Counted from the stretch's first letter, positions 8,482 to 34,396 are shown. The stretch is DNA of 37,166 nt from Candidatus Yonathbacteria bacterium (GCA_013334825.1 JAAXWR010000003.1:1-37166), one strand, 5' to 3'. Program-made: numbers and translations. The notes: generated by a model not told the origin, from the letters alone.

Positions 8482-8549
8482 CCAAAGGAGATGTTACACC
8501 ACAACGCGAACATCATGCATTGACACATTGTTCGTATTGGCAACAGCCC

Positions 8550-8645
8550 TCACTCCCCGCAAGGATCAAGAACAATGACTGCCGCATGTCCACTGGTAAA
8601 AAAGTTGTCCCCCGCGAAGTTTTCACCTGTTGTTGGAGCAACAAA
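8550..8645 (-). pseudogene. Relic of a PAP2-LssY gene 3' end
   Basis: These 96 bp match the 3' end of the PAP2-LssY gene (9658-9753) at about 92% by eye, including the same stop codon. On the minus strand it still reads PTTGENFAGDNFFTSGHAA then VIVLDPCGE, with mostly synonymous differences from the intact gene. There is no upstream remainder of the gene. It is best read as the tail of a former tandem paralogue, leaving a direct repeat on either side of the YdcF-type gene. The following 140 bp to 8786 contain nothing recognisable. Confidence 0.85.
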
Positions 8646-9650: not shown

Positions 9651-9657
9651 CACCTTC

Positions 9658-11163
9658 TCACTCCCCGCAAGGATCAAGAACAATGATTGCCGCGTGTCCA
9701 CTGGTAAAGAAATTGTCTCCCGCGAAGTTTTCACCTGTTGTCGGGGCAACAAATGGCACCACGGATGTATATGTCACAACACTCGCGCGAACAAGATCAT
9801 TTACAAACACATCACGTTCCGTATCAATATCCGGAGAAATCTCATGGGTCAGCACTCCCCATTTGATATCAACATCCAAACTCACTGTCCCTACATACAG
9901 TCCCCCGAGTGGGGTGTCATATGCGGTACGCCAAAAACGCGCGTGATGACGCGAACGCGCGGACTGCTCCTCTGTTTCTTTTTGAAATCCATACGTATGT
10001 GGCATAGCATTAAAAAACGATGGTGTCATCGGCGCAGTTGGATATGCTTCATCAAGTGCTGCACGTTTAGCAAACGTTGTCATACTCTTCCAGTCAACAT
10101 CATCACCAAGCACCCACCCCGCACGTCTTACTTGTTCTGTAAAGCATGCCCGTGGAGCGATAACAATCAAATTAATCGGCTCTTGAGATGCCCCCATAAT
10201 ATCTTCCGTAAATTGTGGGAGCACCATGTCACTAAAAAGTACGGGAACATCAACAAGAGAAATCGGCTGCGTCTCATTCATGGTATATGATGAAAACACT
10301 GGCGCGGGAGAAAGTCCGTACATAGCAGAAGCCCCCATCGCCGCCACACCCATCACTATCGCCGTGGCGGAATATCGCGTAACGCTCGCGCGAATCATAT
10401 CACGATAATCAATCACCCATTCTGTCAGTCCGATGCCAATGATAAGAGCAGCAAACCCAAGGAGATTACCCGCGAGTACATCAGAAAGATAATGAACACC
10501 CAGATACAATCGACTAAAATCAACACCGAGGACAAGTACAACAAAGACAACCGTCGACCATCGTTTTACGCGCAGAGATGCAGTGCTTTTCCATACAAGG
10601 TACAGCATATATCCATACAATGGGACAACTGTTGACGCATGACCGCTCGGAAATGAAAATGATGTTTCTACAATAGCGCGCATTGCTTCATCAGGACGAA
10701 GACGCTGAAAAAAGAGTTTCCCCAACGATGCTCCCATCTGTCCAATAGCGACAGAGAGCCAGAGCCCTGGGATATAAACGCGATGGTGATATTGCCATAA
10801 AACAATACTCGCACCAAGCATGACCGCAACAATAACAATTCCTTCAGAAAAATAGGTAAGAAAATGAAAAAACGCGAGAAGACCGTCGCTTCGAAATGCA
10901 TACAATAAATTTGCCAAACGTGTATCAAGGAACACGAGTGCTTCATTCGTCACATACCCTTCAACAATACTGGCAAGAAACGCGAGGACGACACAGAGTA
11001 AGAGCGTAAGTAGTGTAAGTGGCAACCCTTCAAACATGTCCGCATCAACCCGTCGTTTTATAAACGCGAAAGATCGCGGATATCGCGACAAAAAACGTTT
11101 TACGAAAGATATATTCAGAGCATTCTTAAAAAATAGTTCAACGTGTGAGAGAAATGTATTCAT
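9658..11163 (-). CDS. PAP2-family phosphatase with LssY C-terminal domain
   Basis: The first half is an integral-membrane type 2 phosphatidic-acid phosphatase domain: about six hydrophobic segments and the three catalytic motifs KLFFQRLRP, SFPSGHAS and SRLYLGVHYLSDV (Arg, His and His-Asp). It probably dephosphorylates a lipid such as undecaprenyl diphosphate or a phosphatidate. A seventh hydrophobic segment (TAIVMGVAAMGASAMYGL) leads into a C-terminal extracytoplasmic LssY-type domain ending GENFAGDNFFTSGHAAIIVLDPCGE. I use the ATG at 11161-11163 (MNTFLSHVELFF); the frame is open to 11211. LssY-type domains are common in CPR and other bacteria with unknown role. The gene's 3' end is duplicated at 8550-8645. 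Confidence 0.9.
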   Translation of the reverse strand: MNTFLSHVELFFKNALNISFVKRFLSRYPRSFAFIKRRVDADMFEGLPLTLLTLLLCVVLAFLASIVEGYVTNEALVFLDTRLANLLYAFRSDGLLAFFHFLTYFSEGIVIVAVMLGASIVLWQYHHRVYIPGLWLSVAIGQMGASLGKLFFQRLRPDEAMRAIVETSFSFPSGHASTVVPLYGYMLYLVWKSTASLRVKRWSTVVFVVLVLGVDFSRLYLGVHYLSDVLAGNLLGFAALIIGIGLTEWVIDYRDMIRASVTRYSATAIVMGVAAMGASAMYGLSPAPVFSSYTMNETQPISLVDVPVLFSDMVLPQFTEDIMGASQEPINLIVIAPRACFTEQVRRAGWVLGDDVDWKSMTTFAKRAALDEAYPTAPMTPSFFNAMPHTYGFQKETEEQSARSRHHARFWRTAYDTPLGGLYVGTVSLDVDIKWGVLTHEISPDIDTERDVFVNDLVRASVVTYTSVVPFVAPTTGENFAGDNFFTSGHAAIIVLDPCGE

Positions 11164-23109: not shown

Positions 23110-23191
23110 GCCCGGGTGGTGAAATTGGTAGACACGTACGCTTCAGGAGCGTATGCCGCAAGGCTTGGAGGTTCGAACCCTCTCTCGGGCA
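23110..23191 (+). tRNA. tRNA-Leu (CAG)
   Basis: Class II tRNA with acceptor GCCCGGG/CTCGGGC, anticodon loop TTCAGGA (anticodon CAG), T-loop TTCGAAC and discriminator A. CCA is not encoded. Its 3' end is repeated downstream in inverted and direct orientation (see 23227-23455). Confidence 0.95.
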
Positions 23192-23228
23192 CATATATAA
23201 AAACGCCGTAAGGCGTTTTTATATATGT
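23191..23228 (+). terminator. Perfect 17-bp hairpin at the tRNA-Leu (CAG) 3' end
   Basis: ACATATATAAAAACGCC (23191-23207) pairs perfectly with 23212-23228 around GTAA. It begins at the tRNA discriminator base and is continuous with the inverted copy of the tRNA 3' end, so tRNA acceptor, trailer and element form one inverted repeat. Confidence 0.7.
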
Positions 23229-23455
23229 GCCCGAGAAGCAAAGCAACTGCTTGCTTTGCATGAGGGTTCGAACCGAGCACCACTTTTGTCCATACAAAAG
23301 TGGTGCTCGACGTCCAGCGGTATCCAGCTCCACTTTCATAATAAACATTGTCCTTTGCGCAGAACAATAATTGCGAGTGTGAATATCAATTCAAGTGTTA
23401 AATTATTTATAAAAGTGGGGCTGGATAACCGCGGGACAACCCTCTCTCGGGCACA
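23227..23455 (+). repeat. tRNA-linked structured element, Leu copy
   Basis: Parts in order: inverted copy of the acceptor strand (GTGCCCGAG, 23227-23235); hairpin 1 at 23238-23259 (stem GCAAAGC/GCTTTGC, loop AACTGCTT); inverted T-arm copy GAGGGTTCGAAC (23262-23273); hairpin 2, a 16-bp stem at about 23274-23309; hairpin 3 from GTCCAGCGGTA (23312) to TAACCGCGGGAC (23437), carrying an AT-rich apical stem-loop; then a direct copy of the tRNA 3' end from the T-loop to CACA (23438-23455), 262 bp after the original. Related to the elements after tRNA-Val, tRNA-Arg (TCT) and tRNA-Ser. Confidence 0.85.
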
Positions 23456-26384: not shown

Positions 26385-27488
26385 TTCAAGAATATACTGC
26401 AACACCTGTTTCCATTAAGAATACCTCAACGGGCGTCAACCCGCCAAGTCGTTTTCGTGGTCGTGTGTTCAACAAATACTCAATTCGCTTCAATTCTTCA
26501 TCGGACACATGCGAAAAGTCTGTCTTTTTTGGTAAGAATCTTCGGAGGAGTCCGTTGGTGTTTTCGTTCGTACCACGTTCATATGATGCATAGGCATGAG
26601 CGTAAAACACGTCGAGACCGAGTGTTGCGGTAACCTCACGGTGTCGTACATTCTCACTTCCTCGGTCGCGTGTGAGAGTAATGCGTGTATGTGCTGGAAG
26701 GCGTCCCAACGCTTTGATGAGTACTGCATCACACGCTTCCGCCGTACCATTCACTGTCTTCCCGAATAATGTGACGCCACTTCGTCGCTCTGTCACATTC
26801 TTGATGCGTACTGTAGATGTGTGAGAGAGCATGGTGTCATCTTTCCAGTCTCCGATACGAGACCGCTCTGCGACAACAGACGGACGAATATCTATGGATG
26901 GGAGTAACCTGTCCCGTTCCATCTTTTGTGCCTTTCTGAAGCCCTTTTTTGCTCGTCGTGTATGAAGTCTTGCAAGGTATGAACGTAAATCAATCTCTCC
27001 ATCCCGTATCGTTCCATTCCCACCACGGTGCACACGTCGATAGATCTCACTATAGATGCTTTCGGGAGCAATGCGCATGGTGTTGTCCAACGGAAACTCG
27101 ACAGGGAGACGGATACTTACTTGTTCAGGCGACCATCGTTCGTTGATCAGTTTGGTCTCAATGTATGTTTTGAGTTGTATAGACTTTTGTGTCTTCGGGG
27201 TATTTCCACGGTTGCCGATGCGGAGAAGTGCTTTTCTGTGTGCTGTATCCGCATTGTATCTTCCTCGACCGATACGCGGTTTTCCCGCCAATTCTCGTGA
27301 GACGGAACTCTTGTTTCTTCCCAACTCTTTGGCAATGTCGGTTACCCCTTTGTAATCACGACACCATCTGACCTCAATAATACTGCGCTCTCCCAAGGTG
27401 AGGGGGCTGCCACCTGTTCGTTTTCTTTGTATGTTCTTTGTCATACTTGTGTAGTATACCTAAACATGTGTTGCAATTAATTCTGGAA
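26385..27488. mobile_element. IS30-family insertion sequence, apparently complete
   Basis: Terminal inverted repeats of 21 bp at 26385-26405 and 27468-27488 match at 17 positions (consensus end TTC-AGAAT...GCAACAC). They enclose one intact transposase gene. The left repeat overlaps the transposase stop codon. I could not identify a target-site duplication with confidence. Total about 1104 bp. Confidence 0.8.
26386..27444 (-). CDS. IS30-family transposase
   Basis: 352 aa with the expected layout. An N-terminal helix-turn-helix is at about 15-55 (LTLGERSIIEVRWCRDYKGVTDIAKELGRNKSSVSRELAG, ending in the family's S-R-E-L). A DDE core follows: GDWKDDTM (first Asp), TLTRDRGSEN (second Asp), and YERGTNENTNGLLRRFLPK, which is the highly conserved IS30 segment with the catalytic Glu. 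The sequence is complete with no frameshift, so the element may be active. TATACT is 8 nt before the ATG. Confidence 0.95.
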   Translation of the reverse strand: MTKNIQRKRTGGSPLTLGERSIIEVRWCRDYKGVTDIAKELGRNKSSVSRELAGKPRIGRGRYNADTAHRKALLRIGNRGNTPKTQKSIQLKTYIETKLINERWSPEQVSIRLPVEFPLDNTMRIAPESIYSEIYRRVHRGGNGTIRDGEIDLRSYLARLHTRRAKKGFRKAQKMERDRLLPSIDIRPSVVAERSRIGDWKDDTMLSHTSTVRIKNVTERRSGVTLFGKTVNGTAEACDAVLIKALGRLPAHTRITLTRDRGSENVRHREVTATLGLDVFYAHAYASYERGTNENTNGLLRRFLPKKTDFSHVSDEELKRIEYLLNTRPRKRLGGLTPVEVFLMETGVAVYS

Positions 27489-27576: not shown

Positions 27577-27804
27577 ATGGAAACATTACGCATAATCACT
27601 CACGGTATGTTGATGCTTATTATTGTGGGAATTGGTGAATGGGTTACCCTTGTGGTTAAAATGTATTTCGATGTAAAACCACAGCTGCTCATATTAATTT
27701 TCGCGATTTTCACATTTTTATGGATTCTCGCCTATATTGGGGTGGAACGTATATTCCTCCCACGACAAAAATTCATAATGAAGGAGCGAATGTGTTCACT
27801 CTAG
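27577..27804 (+). CDS. Small two-helix membrane protein, 75 aa
   Basis: I do not recognise a family. There are two hydrophobic segments (about residues 9-27 and 37-56), separated by a short basic-acidic loop and followed by a basic tail (ERIFLPRQKFIMKER). The gene is on the plus strand, has TAACTT 6 nt before its ATG, and is followed by a strong terminator at 27818. That context supports a real, singly transcribed gene next to the IS30 element. Confidence 0.55.
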   Translation: METLRIITHGMLMLIIVGIGEWVTLVVKMYFDVKPQLLILIFAIFTFLWILAYIGVERIFLPRQKFIMKERMCSL

Positions 27805-27817
27805 AAACTAAGCTACG

Positions 27818-27840
27818 GCCAACATTTGTTGGTCTTTTTA
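27818..27840 (+). terminator. Intrinsic terminator of the 75-aa membrane protein
   Basis: GGCCAAC-ATTT-GTTGGTC stem-loop followed by TTTTTATAT. Confidence 0.85.
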
Positions 27841-27886
27841 TATACCTATTTGTACAAAAAACAAACATGGGGTATAGTATTCGAAC

Positions 27887-27959
27887 GGGCGATTAGCTCA
27901 GTTGGTAGAGCAACTCGTTTACACCGAGAAGGTCGGGGGTTCGAATCCCTCATCGCCCA
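27887..27959 (+). tRNA. tRNA-Val (TAC)
   Basis: Acceptor GGGCGAT/ATCGCCC, D-arm TAGCTCAGTTGGTAGAGC, anticodon loop TTTACAC (anticodon TAC), T-loop TTCGAAT, discriminator A. CCA not encoded. TATAGT about 9 bp before the 5' end is a likely -10. A structured element follows. Confidence 0.95.
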
Positions 27960-28006
27960 CAGACACACACTCGCAAGGAGAATCCTTGCGAGTGTTTTGT
28001 GTCTGT
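27959..28006 (+). terminator. Long hairpin at the tRNA-Val 3' end
   Basis: ACAGACAC...CTCGCAAGGA pairs with TCCTTGCGAG...TGTGTCTGT around GAA, about 22 bp with small mismatches. It is continuous with the inverted copy of the tRNA 3' end that follows. Confidence 0.7.
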
Positions 28007-28008
28007 GC

Positions 28009-28154
28009 GGCGATGAGGGATTCGAAAAAGCCGCGCGCGAAGCCCGACAAGATTTATCTTGTCAGAGCGCGGCGACGGGGTCGCGAGTTCTTAGCGGATA
28101 AGCGGGCGCTTGCGACCGCGCATCTGCTTAGAACTGGTGACCGAATCCCTCATC
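28009..28154 (+). repeat. tRNA-linked structured element, Val copy
   Basis: An exact 18-bp inverted copy of the tRNA 3' part (28009-28026, rc of 27940-27957) without hairpin 1; hairpin 2 at 28030-28073 (GCCGCGC/GCGCGGC outside, GACAAGAT/ATCTTGTC inside); hairpin 3 at 28079-28142, from GGTC to GACC with internal mismatches; then a direct copy GAATCCCTCATC (28143-28154), exactly 200 bp after the original in the tRNA. Confidence 0.8.
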
Positions 28155-28183
28155 ACACCAACACGGAACATGACTCCGTGTAC

Positions 28184-28260
28184 GTTTTGTGTCTGTGCGG
28201 CAATGAGGGATTCGAACGGCGGAGCATGTCTCGTGCAAGCACGAAATATGCTCCGCCGTT
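28184..28260 (+). repeat. Second, partial Val-type element
   Basis: The 33 bp at 28184-28216 repeat 27994-28026 with one difference, so the inverted tRNA-Val end is present twice. A strong hairpin follows, CGGCGGAGCAT paired with ATGCTCCGCCG (about 28216-28260). It then runs into sequence shared with the Arg element. A short hairpin (CACGGA/TCCGTG, 28162-28180) precedes it. Confidence 0.65.
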
Positions 28261-28378
28261 CGCTTCCTGACTTGTCTCGCCGAAGCTTTAGCGAAGGCGG
28301 GACGCGAGCAAAGCAATTTGCTCACTCCGGGGGCACATATGAAAAACGCGCATAATGCGCGTTTTTCATATGTGGCCA
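28261..28378 (-). repeat. Partial duplicate of the Arg element without its tRNA
   Basis: The sequence repeats the distal part of the tRNA-Arg element (28699-28780), including hairpin 1 (loop AATTGCTT on the minus strand) and the ACATATGAAAAACGCGCA hairpin. The tRNA gene itself is missing, and about 31 bp (near 28272-28302) are inserted. Confidence 0.7.
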
Positions 28379-28583
28379 CGAGTCACTAAGCATAATGCTT
28401 CGCTAAAGCTTGCATTCTGCAAAGTGCTCGCCTCCTTACAGGAGCAGTACACCTTTTGGACGTATTGTTCGGACAAGTCCTCCAATCCGTCTCAAAAGGT
28501 CTTGCGAAAGCTCCATGTGTTCGCTTTCTCACCCCGGCTCGGCTTTTCATTCTCAAGCAAGTTGAGAATGAAATATGCCTGCG
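28379..28583. other. Linker inside the Val-Arg interval, no gene
   Basis: About 205 bp with short hairpins, such as CATTCTCAA/TTGAGAATG (28548-28570) and CTCC/GGAG near 28435. The frames crossing it show no protein-like composition, and its extent matches the spacing between element copies. It probably consists of decayed element sequence. Confidence 0.5.
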
Positions 28584-28740
28584 CCCGGCAGGAATCGTCC
28601 CGCGGTTACTAATGGAAATGCTTCGGGCGCTCGCATTTCCATAAGTACCGCTGGACGCGGCTCGCCGTTTCGTGCAAGCACGAAACATGCTCCGCCGTTC
28701 GCTTCCTGACGCGAGCAAAGCAGTTTGCTCGCTCCGGGGG
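28584..28740 (-). repeat. tRNA-linked structured element, Arg (TCT) copy
   Basis: Read on the minus strand: inverted acceptor copy GCCCCCG; hairpin 1 at 28711-28732 (stem GCGAGCA/TGCTCGC, loop AACTGCTT); inverted T-arm copy; hairpin 2 at about 28657-28696; hairpin 3 at 28597-28656, 60 nt and 58/60 identical to the Ser copy; direct copy GATTCCTGCCGGG (28584-28596), exactly 200 bp from the original. The copy diverges after CGGG. Confidence 0.85.
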
Positions 28741-28741
28741 C

Positions 28742-28780
28742 ACATATGAAAAACGCGCATTATGCGCGTTTTTCATATGT
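28742..28780 (-). terminator. 18-bp hairpin at the tRNA-Arg (TCT) 3' end
   Basis: ACATATGAAAAACGCGCA and its perfect complement enclose a 3-nt loop. The hairpin begins at the tRNA discriminator and joins the inverted acceptor copy. Confidence 0.7.
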
Positions 28781-28851
28781 GCCCCCGGCAGGAATCGAAC
28801 CTACATTGAGAGATTAGAAGCCTCTTGTTCTATCCATTGAACTACGGGGGC
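28780..28851 (-). tRNA. tRNA-Arg (TCT)
   Basis: Acceptor GCCCCCG/CGGGGGC, anticodon loop CTTCTAA (anticodon TCT, reads AGA/AGG), T-loop TTCGATT, discriminator A. CCA not encoded. Convergent with tRNA-Val. Confidence 0.95.
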
Positions 28852-28902
28852 AATGTATGTTTCCCATCAAGACATCCAGACTATCAGCCTACACTATATA
28901 GG

Positions 28903-29301
28903 TCAATAGGTAGATTCCGGCTTAGAAACAACAGGAACTTCAATGAAACTTTTTTCCGTCTTTCTGTCTGGTATCTCCTCTTTTTCATCTTCAGATAACC
29001 TTCCTACAATCATTTGAAAACGCTCTTCTTTTGCATGATACAACGCTGCTGTTTTTGTTATACTTTCCACATCAAGGTCATATTCCGCAATTGATTGTAT
29101 ATCAATCGCATCATTCACTTCCTTTTTTTCACCATATAATACAACAAGATTCACTGCTACTGTTAGAAACATAATAACACTCACAAGAAATAACCAGTCT
29201 CTTTGAGGGTGCATACGTGGACTGGAAGAAATTCTCTTATTCATCCGCGGAATCTTTCCTATTTTCCCAAAAAGTGTTGAGAATATATTGTGTATATCCA
29301 T
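28903..29301 (-). CDS. Hypothetical protein at the end of the pilus operon
   Basis: A 132-aa protein with one membrane helix (about residues 39-57) after a basic N-terminus and a charged C-terminal part ending in a Pro-rich tail (FIEVPVVSKPESTY). It starts 1 nt after the stop of the PilO-like gene, so it is part of that operon. In other bacteria pilP follows pilO, but PilP is a lipoprotein and no lipobox is seen here; this is probably a lineage-specific partner. Function unknown. Confidence 0.65.
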   Translation of the reverse strand: MDIHNIFSTLFGKIGKIPRMNKRISSSPRMHPQRDWLFLVSVIMFLTVAVNLVVLYGEKKEVNDAIDIQSIAEYDLDVESITKTAALYHAKEERFQMIVGRLSEDEKEEIPDRKTEKSFIEVPVVSKPESTY

Positions 29302-29302
29302 A

Positions 29303-29839
29303 TTATTGTTCTTTAAAATTACGGATAATACATTCTACATCTCCTTCCCACACACCTTCATCAGACACATCCATGCTCACATGTGTAAACGATAACGCAT
29401 AGGGGATATCAGCAAGGATTGTTATGAAGCGCAATACATGTTCACGAGATCCACGTATCATTATATGCATAGACAAAAACGCTGAATGTTCATCTTTTTC
29501 TTCAACACCAATCGACTTCATTGATAGAGAAACACTGGTAGCTCGTGCAATATCTTCAAAATCAGTAATCGTTTTTATCACATCTCTGTCTTTAAGAATA
29601 AGCCCACGCAAATACTCCCTCTCTGCACCGGTCTCCTCAATCTGCCTTGCGACCATGCGTGCATTATGCCACCGTGCTTCTTCTGTAAGTGTCTTTTCCA
29701 TAAGAAAACGCACTGACTCTTTCTCTGTATATAAAAAATATATAACAATCCCGTATATAACACACGCAATAAAAGCGAACATGATAGCAAAAAATGTTTT
29801 TCTATGTTTCTTTAGTGTAGTGTTTATATTCATAAGCAT
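29303..29839 (-). CDS. PilO-like type IV pilus inner-membrane protein
   Basis: A 178-aa protein: short cytoplasmic N-terminus, one membrane helix (about residues 17-36), a coiled segment (EKTLTEEARWHNARMVARQIEETGAER), then a ferredoxin-like domain (SVSLSMKSIGVEE, AFLSMHIMIRGSREHVLRFITILADIPYALSFTHVSMD). This is the PilO architecture. PilO pairs with PilN in the periplasm or outside the membrane to hold PilM. It is placed directly after pilN, which supports the assignment. Confidence 0.8.
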   Translation of the reverse strand: MLMNINTTLKKHRKTFFAIMFAFIACVIYGIVIYFLYTEKESVRFLMEKTLTEEARWHNARMVARQIEETGAEREYLRGLILKDRDVIKTITDFEDIARATSVSLSMKSIGVEEKDEHSAFLSMHIMIRGSREHVLRFITILADIPYALSFTHVSMDVSDEGVWEGDVECIIRNFKEQ

Positions 29840-29845
29840 GCGTTA

Positions 29846-30373
29846 TCAATATGTCATCGAGAGAGAAAAAGGGATATCTGATTCCTCAACAAAACTCGAT
29901 ACGGGAACTCGTGTTCCTAGAAATCCTATGTGTTCAAGACGAACAGAAAAATCAATCAATGCGGAGCGAGAAGGAGCAATCCCTTGAACAGCAACCGAAA
30001 CATCTCCCTCTGAGGAAACACTGTACGAAATACCCTCGATAACTATATCTTTTTGTTCAGAAAACACTTTCTCTATAACGACAACGGGGACACGTTCCTT
30101 GTCTCCATCGCTCGACAATAATGTAAGTGCTTCTTTTGTCTCAATAATATCTTTCTCGGCAATACGACCTTCCTCTGCTGAGGGTGCTTCATTACGTGAT
30201 GCTATTGATTTGGTTAATATATCTTTTTCTATCCCCAAAGAAACAAAAGAAATCCAAGCCACAACCGTCGAAAAAAGAGCAGCCACACCAACCATCACAG
30301 CAGTCACAACGAAGAGACGTTCTCTGTAGACGTGCACAAGTCTCTTTTTCTGTTCAGGAGGAAGAAGATTCAT
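29846..30373 (-). CDS. pilN: PilN-like type IV pilus inner-membrane protein
   Basis: PilN binds PilM with its conserved N-terminal peptide: here MNLLPPEQKKRL, close to the family's INLLP motif. A membrane helix follows (about residues 21-43), then a coiled segment and a ferredoxin-like domain (VVVIEKVFSEQKDIVIEGISYSVSSEGDVSVAVQGIAPSRSALIDFSVRLE). I place the start at the ATG at 30371-30373, overlapping the pilM stop; an ATG at 30376 or 30382 is possible. Overlap with pilM and 6-bp spacing to pilO show a tight operon. Confidence 0.88.
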   Translation of the reverse strand: MNLLPPEQKKRLVHVYRERLFVVTAVMVGVAALFSTVVAWISFVSLGIEKDILTKSIASRNEAPSAEEGRIAEKDIIETKEALTLLSSDGDKERVPVVVIEKVFSEQKDIVIEGISYSVSSEGDVSVAVQGIAPSRSALIDFSVRLEHIGFLGTRVPVSSFVEESDIPFSLSMTY

Positions 30374-31461
30374 CATATACATACATGCCGTTCTGGAAGG
30401 GCAAGTCCAATAACTGTCGCATATCCAAGCGCAGCATGTTTTTCAATAGGTGGAATATATATATCAAAGGAATTAACATTCTCCCATGGATTTCCTACGG
30501 AAACAGGAATATTGGCTTTCTTTCCGAGATACTCAGCAAGACCTTGTAGATTTGCTCCACCACCTGACAACAACACATGATACACTGGTGTTTCGCCTGT
30601 TCTTCCCGCTTGATAGGTATGCCAATACTCATACAGTTTGATTATCTCGTCAGACATACGTTCGAGTGACGGACGAAGTACTCTCTCAAGTTCATGCTCT
30701 CGGATATTCAATGTATGTTCATTTTTCATACGTTCTGCCTCTACTTCATCAACACCAAGTGCATCTATTATATCATGTGAAAATGAATCACTCCCAATAT
30801 CAACAGTCGACGTAAAACGCACAACCCCCTCACGTACAATTGAGACACCTGTGCGAAGCCGTCCAATATCGACAATCATGTATGTTTGATTATCACACTC
30901 GGGAACAATCGCACGCGCCATCGCTTGTCCTTCAATATGGAGAGCAATTGGTGTCATACCAACCTGGTCAAGCACATCAAGATATGTCTGCACGTCTTCT
31001 TTTGGCATCACAGCCGCCAGAACATGTATGGTACCAGCTGTTTCTCTCGTCTCTGAAAGTGGAATAAAATCAAAGACGACTTGATCTGGTTTAAACGGTA
31101 CATACTCTTCAAGACGAAAACTAATAGCGTCATACAGATTTGTATCCTCTACGTACGGAACATCCATATGTACGATATACGCGCGCTCTTCCGGAAGAGA
31201 AACACGCACAAATTCAAATCCATACTTACGCTTCATACTTTGTAATATTGCGGCAAATTCAAGAGGTTTCTTAATTGTTCCACCAACAATAATACCTGGA
31301 GCAATAGGAGATTCTCCATAACGTGTCACTTCCATTGACCCTCGTGAACCCGAGAGTTCAAGGAAACGAACTCGTCGATCAGTAATATCCAAACCAACAG
31401 CAGACATCGCAAGAAGTTTCGGAACGGGAATATGAGAAAAAAAATGTTCTGCACGCATCAT
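30373..31461 (-). CDS. pilM: Type IV pilus assembly ATPase-like protein PilM
   Basis: PilM is a cytoplasmic actin-like protein (FtsA fold) that anchors PilN-PilO and links pilus and assembly ATPases. The fold is clear: AVGLDITDRRVRFLELSGS (phosphate-1 region), MIVDIGRLRTGVSIVREGVVRFTSTVDIGSD (phosphate-2), and HVLLSGGGANLQGLAEYLGKK (adenosine motif). The frame is open 52 codons upstream, but the ATG pair at 31461/31458 has TATACT 6 nt upstream and fits PilM length (362 aa). No major pilin or PilB/PilC is in this window. Confidence 0.93.
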   Translation of the reverse strand: MMRAEHFFSHIPVPKLLAMSAVGLDITDRRVRFLELSGSRGSMEVTRYGESPIAPGIIVGGTIKKPLEFAAILQSMKRKYGFEFVRVSLPEERAYIVHMDVPYVEDTNLYDAISFRLEEYVPFKPDQVVFDFIPLSETRETAGTIHVLAAVMPKEDVQTYLDVLDQVGMTPIALHIEGQAMARAIVPECDNQTYMIVDIGRLRTGVSIVREGVVRFTSTVDIGSDSFSHDIIDALGVDEVEAERMKNEHTLNIREHELERVLRPSLERMSDEIIKLYEYWHTYQAGRTGETPVYHVLLSGGGANLQGLAEYLGKKANIPVSVGNPWENVNSFDIYIPPIEKHAALGYATVIGLALPERHVCI

Positions 31462-31467
31462 AGGTAT

Positions 31468-31473
31468 AGTATA
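31468..31473 (-). promoter_or_regulatory. -10 hexamer of the pil operon
   Basis: TATACT ends 6 nt before the ATG at 31461. Confidence 0.65.
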
Positions 31474-31534
31474 CAAAACATCGCATATAAATGCGATGTG
31501 TACGTCGAAAAACTTTTCTTTTTCTTTTGTTCTT

Positions 31535-31957
31535 CTATGTTTTTTCGAAACCTGTCGTCCTTTCCGCATACTTATCAAGGTATCGCTGTAAAATAAGTGC
31601 CGCAGCAGAAGCATCATTTGTTTCGGTCATTCCTTGTGTACGACGCGCCTCTTGCGAAGTCCAATATTCTCGCTCGAGAATAACAGGAATATCCATGCGC
31701 GAAGAGACATCCGCAACAAAACGATCAATATCATCTTGCACGGAATTGCGTTCCCCTTTAAGGGTAAGTGATTCTCCCACAACAAGAGTCGTCGCACCGC
31801 GTGTAGCACATATCTCGACAATAACATCCGCAAGCATCGGTGATTGCGGAATTACTCGCTCTGGAAAAGCAATTTTTGCGCGGTCATCAGACACTGCCAC
31901 ACCGACACGACGCGTGCCATAATCGATACCAATCATAATGTTTTTCTTTTCTTGCAT
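31535..31957 (-). CDS. ruvX: RuvX/YqgF-type Holliday junction resolvase
   Basis: A 140-aa RNase H-fold nuclease also implicated in 16S rRNA 5' processing. Motifs: MIGIDYGTRRVGVAVSD (catalytic first Asp), LVVGESLTLKGERNSVQ (the family's VVGxPxxxxG segment, with E-S in place of P), ILEREYWTSQEARR (second acidic residue), and NDASAAALILQRYLD (final Asp). TAATAT lies 7 nt before the ATG. It is transcribed separately from pilM. Confidence 0.93.
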   Translation of the reverse strand: MQEKKNIMIGIDYGTRRVGVAVSDDRAKIAFPERVIPQSPMLADVIVEICATRGATTLVVGESLTLKGERNSVQDDIDRFVADVSSRMDIPVILEREYWTSQEARRTQGMTETNDASAAALILQRYLDKYAERTTGFEKT

Positions 31958-31964
31958 AATAGAT

Positions 31965-31970
31965 ATATTA
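31965..31970 (-). promoter_or_regulatory. -10 hexamer of ruvX
   Basis: TAATAT ends 7 nt before the ATG at 31957. Confidence 0.5.
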
Positions 31971-31973
31971 CTA

Positions 31974-33275
31974 CTATTTCACAGATGCACGATACATGAC
32001 AATTGCCTCACGAATTTTTTCTACAATGTCATCAAACTGTGCATCATCAGTTTCGAGAAGTGTCATACGAAATCCAACAAGATCTGTATTAAATCCAGAA
32101 AGTGGTACCACGACAATACCCGTTGCACCAATGAGATAGTGCGCAAAACGCTTATCCGCTGTAACACCCATCACTGCGTGTTCCACCTCTCGACGAACAG
32201 TATCATCTTTGATTGGTAACGTACCATTTTCTGGCAAGTCATCAAAAACGACAGAATAATAAAATGCTCCTTCAGGACGTGGAGCCATGACACCAGGGAT
32301 ACTCGCAAAGGCTTTATATGCACGGTCAGCACGAGTAGCGTATTGAGCGACACGCGACGCAACGGTATGATCATATCGTTCATCACCCAAGATTGCGGGC
32401 AACACATGTTGTGGAAGTGCGGTAGCACACACCTCGAGCATCTTCGCATCATTCAACGTTTTCACATATCGCGCAAAATCAGCGTCAATATCTTTGTTAT
32501 ACACTTCAATCCATCCGCAACGCGATCCAGGCCATGGCACTTCTTTAGAAAGTCCCCGCATCACAATTGCTGGCACATCACTTCCGAGAACATCATACAG
32601 TGGCGTGAACTCTTTTGGTTCATATGCCAATCGTGCATATGTCTCATCAGCAATAAGAAAAAGTCCATGAGTACGCGCAATGGCAACGATTTGTTCAAGC
32701 ACTTTCCGTGGATATACCATACCCGTTGGATTATCTGGGTTGATAATGAGAATACCCGCAACAGACGGATTGTATTTCACTTTATTGCGAATATCCTCTA
32801 TATCCGGGAGCCAGTTACGATGTGGGTCAAGATGATAGGTAATGTGTGCCGCACCAGCATGAGCCGCCTCAGCAGATGAATGTGTTGGATAGGCAGGAGA
32901 CGGACCGATAATCCGCGCGCTACGACGTAGATAGGTATACACAACAGAGATGGCGTCACCAAGACCATTGAAAAAAAGTATATCATCGGGAGAAAGAGTA
33001 ACCCCCGATTCTTTTTTGCGAGACTGTGCGATGTAGTGACGTGTAGCAAGTACCCCCTTTGTTGGTGTATACCCAAAACATACATCTGTTTTCGTATGTT
33101 CAGCAATAATATCCTTAATCCACGGCGCGATATGTTCGCCCTTTGCGATTGGATCACCGATATTTTCCCATACAATAGGCACACCTAACGTCCCGAGTTT
33201 TTCAGCAAACGCAACAATGCCACGTATTTCATACGACAATTCGTCTGCTCCTTCGTGAATAATATTCGTACGCAT
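31974..33275 (-). CDS. PLP-dependent aminotransferase, class I/II
   Basis: A fold-type I aminotransferase of 433 aa. Visible motifs: IGDPIAKGEHIAPWI (substrate region), DVCFGYTPTKGVLATRHYIAQSR, ILIINPDNPTGMVYPRKVLEQIV (conserved NPxNPTG), LIADETYARLAY (Asp contacting the pyridine nitrogen, then Tyr), IVMRGLSKEVPWPGSRCGWIEVY (Lys forming the Schiff base, then Arg), and a C-terminal GFRMTLL Arg. The nearest known relatives are alanine/aspartate-type aminotransferases; the substrate is not deducible. TATACT lies 7 nt before the ATG at 33273-33275, chosen over upstream in-frame starts. Confidence 0.9.
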   Translation of the reverse strand: MRTNIIHEGADELSYEIRGIVAFAEKLGTLGVPIVWENIGDPIAKGEHIAPWIKDIIAEHTKTDVCFGYTPTKGVLATRHYIAQSRKKESGVTLSPDDILFFNGLGDAISVVYTYLRRSARIIGPSPAYPTHSSAEAAHAGAAHITYHLDPHRNWLPDIEDIRNKVKYNPSVAGILIINPDNPTGMVYPRKVLEQIVAIARTHGLFLIADETYARLAYEPKEFTPLYDVLGSDVPAIVMRGLSKEVPWPGSRCGWIEVYNKDIDADFARYVKTLNDAKMLEVCATALPQHVLPAILGDERYDHTVASRVAQYATRADRAYKAFASIPGVMAPRPEGAFYYSVVFDDLPENGTLPIKDDTVRREVEHAVMGVTADKRFAHYLIGATGIVVVPLSGFNTDLVGFRMTLLETDDAQFDDIVEKIREAIVMYRASVK

Positions 33276-33282
33276 GAGCATT

Positions 33283-33288
33283 AGTATA
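33283..33288 (-). promoter_or_regulatory. -10 hexamer of the aminotransferase gene
   Basis: TATACT ends 7 nt before the ATG at 33275. Confidence 0.6.
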
Positions 33289-33297
33289 TCAGTATGA

Positions 33298-33356
33298 TAG
33301 GAGGTTAGGAAGTTAGTTAAAAGGTTAGTATACAAGAAAATTAGGAGATTAGTATG
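33298..33356 (+). repeat. GGAGGTTAGGAAGTTAGT repeat tract
   Basis: Degenerate copies of GGTTAGTATACAAG and TTAGGAGATTAGTATG. Related to the tracts at 1734 and 18831. It ends in AGGAGATTAGT-ATG, a Shine-Dalgarno-like sequence plus ATG that opens the 23-codon frame below. Confidence 0.75.
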
Positions 33357-33425
33357 AAAGAGGAGAATATCACAGAAAAATACCAACGTGCTCGCAACCA
33401 CAGCATTTTTAAAAAAGAGCTGTAG
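33354..33425 (+). CDS. Possible 23-codon ORF with a Shine-Dalgarno sequence
   Basis: ATG at 33354 is preceded by AGGAG with 6 nt spacing, the best Shine-Dalgarno layout seen in the window. The frame encodes MKEENITEKYQRARNHS then IFKKEL. The ORF arises inside a repeat tract, so it may be chance. It lies upstream of the DUF5652 gene on the same strand. Confidence 0.25.
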   Translation: MKEENITEKYQRARNHSIFKKEL

Positions 33426-33453
33426 CGGCTCGCAACTCAACATTTGTTTGTGC

Positions 33454-33459
33454 TATACT
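33454..33459 (+). promoter_or_regulatory. -10 hexamer of the DUF5652 gene
   Basis: TATACT ends 7 nt before the ATG at 33467. Confidence 0.65.
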
Positions 33460-33466
33460 TTTCTTC

Positions 33467-33721
33467 ATGGACATCATCACCGCACTCAACGACCCTTATA
33501 TATTACTTCTTATCCTCCTTTGGGTTCTCCCCTGGAAAGGTTACGCGCTTTGGCTTGCCTCACGTCGTGGACAGAAATGGTGGTTTATCGCACTTCTTAT
33601 CGTAAACACACTTGCGATTCTTGAAATTATATACATCTTTTTTGTTGCACCACGATACGCGGAAATCGATACACATCTTCCTGAAAAAACATCGGAGGAA
33701 CACACCGATACAACCAGTTAA
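33467..33721 (+). CDS. DUF5652-family two-helix membrane protein
   Basis: An 84-aa protein with two membrane helices (about residues 10-26 and 38-57). The pattern PYILLLILLWVLPWKGYALWLASRRGQKWWFIALLIVNTLAILEIIYIFFV matches the CPR-typical DUF5652 family, with the basic RRGQK loop between the helices. The acidic C-terminal tail is short. Function unknown. The mRNA is probably leaderless. Confidence 0.85.
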   Translation: MDIITALNDPYILLLILLWVLPWKGYALWLASRRGQKWWFIALLIVNTLAILEIIYIFFVAPRYAEIDTHLPEKTSEEHTDTTS

Positions 33722-33754
33722 TTTAGATGGTCTTGATTCTCATTCGCAAACAAT

Positions 33755-33775
33755 GTACCCTATGGGTACGTTTTT
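33755..33775 (+). terminator. Intrinsic terminator of the DUF5652 gene
   Basis: GTACCC-TAT-GGGTAC stem followed by GTTTTTGTTT. Confidence 0.8.
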
Positions 33776-33822
33776 GTTTATAAGAACGTTTTCGAATATT
33801 TTTGTTTACAAAAATGTTTTAA

Positions 33823-33907
33823 GGAGGGGTGGCAGAGTGGTCTATTGCACCGGTCTTGAAAACCGGAGTGCCGCAAGGTACCAAGAGTTCGAATCTCTTC
33901 CCCTCCG
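33823..33907 (+). tRNA. tRNA-Ser (TGA)
   Basis: Class II tRNA with acceptor GGAGGGG/CCCCTCC, anticodon stem CCGGT/ACCGG around CTTGAAA (anticodon TGA), a long variable arm, T-loop TTCGAAT and discriminator G. CCA not encoded. A structured element follows. Confidence 0.95.
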
Positions 33908-33913
33908 CATTTG

Positions 33914-33945
33914 AAAATCCCACCCTTTTTGGGGTGGTGATTTTC
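33914..33945 (+). terminator. Hairpin at the tRNA-Ser 3' end
   Basis: GAAAATCCCACCC pairs with GGGTGGTGATTTTC (one bulge), with a T-rich loop. It is continuous with the inverted acceptor copy that follows. Confidence 0.65.
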
Positions 33946-33949
33946 TTAT

Positions 33950-34113
33950 GTGGAGGGGAGCGAGCCAACTGCTTGGCTCGCGGAAGAGATTCGAACGGCG
34001 GAGCATGTTTCGTGCTTGCACGAAACGGCGAGCCGTGTCCAGCGGTACTTATGGAAATGCGAGTGCCCGAAGCATTTGCATTAGTAACCGCGGGACGAAT
34101 CTCTTCCCCTCCG
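33950..34113 (+). repeat. tRNA-linked structured element, Ser copy
   Basis: Inverted acceptor copy GGAGGGG (33952-33958); hairpin 1 at 33960-33981 (stem GCGAGCC/GGCTCGC, loop AACTGCTT); inverted T-arm copy GGAAGAGATTCGAAC (33982-33996); hairpin 2 at 33997-34036, including GTTTCGTGC/GCACGAAAC; hairpin 3 at 34037-34096, 60 nt; direct copy GAATCTCTTCCCCTCCG (34097-34113), 206 bp after the original in the tRNA. Confidence 0.85.
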
Positions 34114-34135
34114 CTCGTTTGTGAAAAGGTCTTGC

Positions 34136-34232
34136 CCAGCCCTACTTTTCAAAAAAATCTTTCACTATTTTCCTAAAATCAAAATACAAAAAAATATCTC
34201 TATCAACTTATGTTACTAAAAAGTAGAGCTGG
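34136..34232 (+). repeat. AT-rich-loop hairpin related to the Leu element
   Basis: CCAGCCCTACTTTT (34136-34149) pairs with AAAAGTAGAGCTGG (34219-34232) at 13 of 14 positions around a 69-nt AT-rich loop. The apical part of hairpin 3 in the Leu element has a related stem. Immediately after it, 34233-34260 resembles the hairpin at 4657. No gene is seen in 34114-34396. Confidence 0.6.
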
Positions 34233-34396
34233 ATCCGCGCACTCCGCATAGTGAGGATATTATGGAAAAAGGTCTGACCCCCCTTCGCATCAGTATCATA
34301 CACACACGCTGTTTGATATCTATGTCTTGTATGTAGTATGATACATATGTATGAGTACTTTGACCTCATAACTGTGTCAAACCTCAGCAAACATCT

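Follow-up and report, generated by a model that had tools for sequence, protein, structure and literature searches.

A 60-nt hairpin shared by two tRNA loci of Candidatus Yonathbacteria is likely the conserved end of a small gene-less integrative element

Two copies of a 60-nt hairpin, differing at two positions, lie beside tRNA genes in a 37,166-nucleotide stretch of a Candidatus Yonathbacteria genome (GCA_013334825.1 JAAXWR010000003.1:1-37166; hereafter the window), one at 34037–34096 on the plus strand and the other at 28597–28656 on the minus strand. We asked what this hairpin belongs to and how it came to stand at different tRNA genes. The pair, identical at 58 of 60 positions, was first noticed in an initial annotation, in which it was called hairpin 3; the observation was real, yet the hairpin (here hairpin C) only closes a longer unit, the start of which is within the T loop of the tRNA. 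We consider it likely that hairpin C forms the conserved terminus of a mobile, integrative element that carries no genes, measures approximately 150–210 bp and is located at gene 3' ends; one copy of the gene end (R) would restore the gene and a second copy (R0) would be displaced.

Plan of the unit downstream of tRNA genes

The unit at the Ser locus comprises 207 nt (33890–34096, plus strand) and begins inside its host gene, tRNA-Ser(tga), which was predicted by ARAGORN at 33823–33908 (plus strand). As delimited from sequence and coordinates, it opens with the 3' segment of the tRNA, which begins at C56 of the T loop and includes the tRNA end (R, 33890–33908). On the same strand there follow a terminator-like palindrome that ends with the 3' strand of the acceptor stem in inverted form (33910–33958), hairpin A with an invariant AACTGCTT loop and a covarying stem (33959–33982), an inverted copy of the T-arm 3' strand that matches tRNA-Ser (R', 33982–33996), hairpin B (GGCGGAGC...GCGAGCC; 33997–34034) and hairpin C (34037–34096). 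Immediately beyond the unit lies R0, a second, displaced tRNA-Ser 3' end (34097–34114).

The unit at the Arg locus (28597–28797, minus strand) has the same plan. Its R (28779–28797) is the 3' segment of tRNA-Arg(tct) (28779–28851), and it is followed on the minus strand by the terminator palindrome with the inverted acceptor strand (28734–28780), hairpin A (28709–28733), R' as an inverted T-arm strand (28697–28708), hairpin B (28659–28696), hairpin C (28597–28656) and R0 (28581–28596). The array that follows tRNA-Arg(tct) contains an additional C-type hairpin, detected with a covariance model at 28380–28429 (minus strand). Around the two 60-nt hairpins, a block of 110 nt shows 96% identity in inverted orientation between the loci (28592–28701 and 33992–34101), and the outer arms belong to different tRNAs, tRNA-Ser(tga) and tRNA-Arg(tct), as had been annotated. 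The initial annotation did not include the other parts of the unit, namely hairpins A and B, the tRNA 3' segment in inverted form and the second tRNA 3' end that is displaced.

Sequence comparison established that the single plan R, R', B, C, R0 recurs at many tRNAs across many genera. The unit starts with R, the 3' end of the occupied gene, which is followed by a terminator (not always present), by R', an inverted copy of R that is usually accompanied by hairpin A, and by hairpins B and C; R0, the second 3' end, is located beyond C. Units of 153–207 nt carry no genes.

Two further loci in the window follow this plan with modifications. The element at tRNA-Leu(cag) (23174–23454, plus strand) consists of R (23174–23192), the terminator with the inverted acceptor strand (23191–23236), hairpin A (23237–23259), R' (23262–23273), a hairpin B that is a perfect CGAGCACCACTTTTG palindrome (23274–23309), the arms of hairpin C (23312–23322 and 23426–23437) and R0 (23438–23454). 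This copy of hairpin C (23312–23437) has the ends reported for it, and the insert between its arms, previously given as 100 nt, measured 103 nt (23323–23425). The description of this insert as variable cargo is not supported: the insert is a palindromic element in its own right that is nested within hairpin C. It has terminal repeats like CCAGCTCCACTTTCAT...GTGGGGCTGG, which are also present elsewhere in the genome, and it occurs alone next to other tRNAs as well. A two-gap pattern search for the Leu copy gave no match. The element at tRNA-Val(tac) (27942–28154, plus strand) comprises R (27942–27960), a terminator (27961–28007), R' (28009–28026), a B-like hairpin (28028–28074), a C-like hairpin (28079–28142) and R0 (28143–28154), and has no hairpin A. 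Its C-like hairpin is related to a second C type, GTCGCGA...CTTAG...CGTGAC, but has diverged from it.

Other repeats were observed around these sites. A second family of palindromic repeats, with CCCAGCYCYACTTTCAT...ATGAAAGTRGRGCTGGG as terminal repeats, occurs in the window at 23323–23425 and at approximately 34133–34232, and at loci L009, L015, L023, L027 and L035; some members stand next to a tRNA by themselves, and others occupy the terminator position or the tip of hairpin C. Hairpin B is replaced, or capped at its tip, by a related palindrome, CGAGCACCACTTTTG...CAAAAGTGGTGCTCG. On contig C3 of the same genome, tandem 3' parts of tRNA-Ile(gat) (L033, approximately 1576–1920) each contain a T-loop palindrome, TGCCATGAACC...GGTTCATGGC, a different insertion type at the same spot. 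After tRNA-Leu(taa) of genome G028 (L251), two tandem elements possess R' and R0 arms around different hairpins, AGAACTTTTTAAAAGC...GCTTTTAAAAAGTCC; as these hairpins differ from A, B and C, other core types share the arm plan. Further, two elements with Ser-tRNA-like arms have no adjoining tRNA gene (L008, C1:154923-155087; L012, C1:190530-190679) and are probably relics left after tRNA loss.

Folding of the unit and its possible route of insertion

Hairpin C has the feet GTCCA...GTACTT and TTAGTAAC...GGGAC, and it keeps an A.G mismatch, a bulged A and a T.T mismatch, together with a variable tip and paired positions that covary. In an alignment of 113 distinct sequences that was fitted to the covariance model, 93.3% of the cells were paired, compared with 29–48% when the pairing was slid (26–48% over both alignments), and 508 cells were changed on both sides, compared with 155 ± 8 in shuffles. 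An independent MAFFT alignment of 26 sequences gave 92 double changes versus 27. A frequent apparent C.A mismatch, counted in 26 rows, looks like a register shift of the bulge. In hairpin A, the fixed loop AACTGCTT is flanked by 29 different, perfectly complementary 6-nt arms, and most scrambled loops gave none. When the region 27800–34300 was compared with Rfam, only tRNAs reached gathering scores, and the hairpins matched no family. Matches of the microRNA type were below the cut-off and reflect long palindromes.

When units were folded as circular single-stranded DNA, the R.R' pairing (with hairpin A), hairpin B and hairpin C formed separate stable domains, with z values of −6 to −14 relative to dinucleotide shuffles. 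We propose that the unit would probably insert as folded single-stranded DNA. Pairing of R' with R would re-create the target sequence as a duplex, providing a double-stranded core, and hairpins A, B and C would serve as folded arm sites, on which a trans-acting recombinase (a host Xer-like enzyme or one from another element) may exchange one strand. R' extends 2–4 nt into the host sequence upstream of the junction. By covering these bases R' may act as a guide to the target, and a joint change of R and R' would explain retargeting. There are precedents for folded single-stranded DNA: in CTXphi, two inverted sites hybridize into a forked hairpin of approximately 150 bp and Xer exchanges one strand in single-stranded DNA (PMC3089051), and attC sites are used as folded single-stranded DNA (PMC2668188). 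We raise, tentatively and as somewhat less probable than its converse, the broader idea of a programmable gene-less element, in which R' is a rewritable guide, the folded strand is the substrate of a trans-recombinase, and one core is directed to the 3' ends of tRNA, tmRNA and essential genes and spreads between species, perhaps as single-stranded DNA through natural competence.

In the main rival, RNA-guided insertion, a transcript of the element would use R' as a guide that is complementary to the target across the junction, and an enzyme would be bound by B and C, in a bridge-RNA-like or retrohoming-like manner. R' does span the junction by a few nucleotides and is always complementary to the target, and the hairpins look like structured RNA, with a tolerance of G.U similar to that of tRNA stems. 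The frequency of G.T pairs was similar in element hairpins and tRNA acceptor stems (4.4% versus 4.2%), so that pairing cannot separate DNA from RNA. However, at many tRNAs R'-B-C is located past a strong terminator, a non-systematic look found no associated gene or reverse transcriptase, and R' also matches R, which is unnecessary for a guide alone. We therefore regard RNA guidance as unlikely, although it deserves more weight than any other alternative.

Target genes, empty sites and restored gene ends

Among 183 tRNA genes of five genomes, an inverted T-arm copy was found within 900 nt downstream of 68 and upstream of only one. In two genomes, all matches of the covariance model (18/18) were downstream of a tRNA on the same strand. 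The initial annotation had tied the module to tRNA arms. Non-tRNA sites exist: the tmRNA gene is also a target (L129, L256, L267 and L269), as are the genes of FtsZ (L255), ClpP (L257) and ribosomal protein L7/L12 (rplL; L137), in which the unit follows the stop codon directly. However, the arms there match those genes. At tmRNA they match tmRNA; in the ftsZ, clpP and rplL units R' matches the end of the respective gene, and a distal copy of the coding tail is present. The finding is thereby generalized beyond tRNA, and a restored proximal 3' end together with a displaced distal 3' end was seen at ftsZ, clpP, rplL, tRNA and tmRNA.

Orthologous sites that are occupied or empty, an exact tandem unit, synonymously recoded gene ends and reuse of the core with different arms give good support to the proposal of a module that moves or recombines and has arms matching the host. 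In the Cys-Leu(taa)-Lys-Trp cluster of one genus, one species lacks an element at Leu and Lys, whereas the other has one at each; both species carry an element at Trp, with the same foot of hairpin C and different tips. In a sister species (G001), an exact tandem duplication of a 176-bp unit at tRNA-Pro, extending from the T loop to the end of hairpin C, defines the borders of the unit. The junction inside this exact tandem is the one that a circle would have; neither a circle nor an excised form was seen. For ftsZ, approximately 17 of 29 species in one genus were occupied and 12 were empty.

The ftsZ tails indicate where one of the two gene ends came from. At nine loci, which were chosen for an intact distal tail so that the synonymous count is biased, the proximal and distal 12 codons differed at 68 nucleotides, all synonymous, including serine codon-family switches. 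Other ftsZ loci had one change, a frameshift or truncated tails. Random substitution would be nonsynonymous in approximately 74% of cases, and 0/20,000 simulations were all-synonymous; a drifting, non-coding relic is very unlikely to have acquired the 8–13 synonymous differences seen at six of the loci. Both tails must have been coding while they diverged, so that one of them came from another genome. R' fits R better than R0 at seven of the nine loci, and R, rather than R0, would be the copy borne by the element, although the ftsZ relatives are too diverged to tell which copy is foreign.

The same core was found at different genes. The B-C core at clpP in genome G113 is identical at 106 of 115 positions (92%) to that at ftsZ in G574, whereas the third positions of the hosts' ftsZ are only 45% identical; likewise, it matches the core at ftsZ in G567 at 93 of 110 positions, with only 49% identity at the hosts' third positions. 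Because the cores are alike while the hosts' ftsZ genes have diverged, the core moved between species and target genes and its arms changed. By comparison of sequences, the data support site-specific placement, a common unit plan, restoration of the gene, horizontal spread and retargeting of one core. The best reading is that these elements are horizontally mobile, retargetable and integrative, and that they restore the gene they enter.

Three alternatives without such an element are far less probable. Fold-back replication, that is, template switching at gene ends, would account for inverted copies beside direct copies, for the perfect terminator palindromes and for nested hairpins. However, the B and C cores are conserved in many genera with their irregular features kept, the order and the junction are conserved, and the synonymous recoding of R and R0 needs an outside source, leaving this explanation with very little probability. 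An equally slight chance is given to REP-like hairpins moved by a RAYT (Y1) transposase, despite the facts that REP recognition uses folded single-stranded DNA with a bulge (PMC8266576) and that RAYT genes were present in 14 of 20 element-positive genomes: they were also present in 9 of 16 element-negative genomes and absent from strong carriers, and REPs do not restore gene ends. Further, at four RAYT loci in carriers (L186, L187, L184 and L171) the flanking palindromes were not A, B or C. These RAYT-like Y1 genes (L186, 1120–1340; L187, 1180–1260 and 1995–2020; L184; L171) have short flanking palindromes of their own, ACCAAGGTTAAACCTTGGT, AGATTAAGGTCAGACCTTAATCT and CCCGGAGTCCCGGTCTCCGGG, which are genome-specific. 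A cis-acting RNA or DNA structure that is passed on with the tRNA gene and serves the maturation or expression of the tRNA would fit the location mostly downstream of tRNA genes, the arms that match the host tRNA and the strong covariation, but it is already contradicted by the occupation of tmRNA, ftsZ, clpP and rplL with the arms of those genes, by orthologous tRNAs that are both empty and occupied, by one core at different genes and by tandem copies, and is the least credible of all.

Distribution, search for a mover and known systems

For the integrative element, the covariance model detected 20 hairpins C in the genome of the window (839 kb, 3 contigs). An exact search of this genome for the end motifs of the hairpin, with 30–59 nt between them, returned five matches, and a reversed control pattern returned none. 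The exact foot pattern was present in 7 of 297 genomes of the order (control matches, 0), and the covariance model detected the element in 42 of 148. A class-wide sample contained it in only six genomes from outside the order, and its occurrence in other orders is sporadic. Among 84,980 bacterial and archaeal species, 16 stretches matched the foot pattern; all named sources were Patescibacteria, including Campbellbacteria (with the complete genome CP011215), Paceibacterota and one Woesebacteria bin, and one record was named only "uncultured bacterium". No match to the pattern was found in viral contigs (IMG/VR) or in phage and plasmid collections, and there is thus no known carrier.

The initial annotation had proposed looking for a tyrosine recombinase or HUH nuclease gene whose presence tracks the motif. 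No recombinase was found to do so: carriers and non-carriers alike have approximately one Phage_integrase match per genome, and the carrier G106 has none. The sole PF00589 match in the genome of the window is XerC/XerD-like and scored 129 bits against the integron integrase model, whose cut-off is 265. Tracking of integrase and RAYT genes across genomes revealed no enzyme that moves the element. The nearest IS30 transposase (26389–27444) was also considered and rejected; the sequence around it holds no copy of the unit.

The likeness to integrons that had been noted is an analogy only. The core motifs do differ, as annotated: the element has neither an attC core motif (RYYYAAC/GTTRRRY) nor cassette genes nor an integron integrase, the only recombinase match in the genome of the window is XerC/D-like, and no recombinase tracks the element. 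Hairpin C resembles attC in its structured fold, in the unpaired bases that it conserves and the tip that varies, in the occurrence of tandem units and in its possible use as folded single-stranded DNA. Unlike integrons, the element is located in gene 3' ends and has target-derived arms. CTXphi and other Xer-exploiting single-stranded DNA phages (IMEX) form their attachment site from two inverted copies, as R and R' could; however, the phage targets dif, has genes and restores no host gene, whereas the element is gene-less and occupies many gene ends. Reading of the sequences for a dif-like core revealed no motif common to the cores, which are T loops or, at ftsZ, clpP and rplL, the 3' ends of the coding sequence. 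Tyrosine-integrase elements and satellites at the 3' ends of tRNA, tmRNA and protein genes share insertion at the T loop or gene end, restoration and a displaced distal copy, but they comprise kilobases with an integrase gene, in contrast to 150–210 bp without genes, an inverted target copy and one core for unrelated targets. REP/RAYT repeats are likewise small, bulged, extragenic palindromes in many copies, but the element lacks the GTAG foot and its arms match the host gene. MITEs are also gene-less, non-autonomous and palindromic, but the element has no fixed terminal inverted repeats and its ends vary with the target gene. At these defining features the element departs from integrons, REPs, MITEs and Xer phages alike, and we file it as a new kind, working like a folded-strand integrative element.

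The mobile elements of Patescibacteria are poorly known. If our reading is true, the element is among the smallest integrative elements known, gene-less and retargetable with exact restoration of essential genes, and it shows a route of gene flow in these bacteria; the synonymous recoding of ftsZ offers a means to trace transfers. It also raises the questions of which enzyme moves the element and whether its arm is a natural rewritable guide. A search of the literature on tRNA-associated palindromes in these bacteria found nothing fitting; the nearest case, a short palindrome after tRNAs of Methanopyrus kandleri, is unrelated (PMC5217627).

Three further repeats were observed. In genome G106 (L197), two partial 5' copies of tRNA-Lys(ctt) lie upstream of the intact gene. 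In the window, 97-nt direct copies at 8549–8645 and 9657–9753 are 93% identical and overlap the 3' part of an ORF that looks PAP2-like, and octamer tandem repeats, GTTAGGAG-like, are located at 1716–1807 and 33280–33367.
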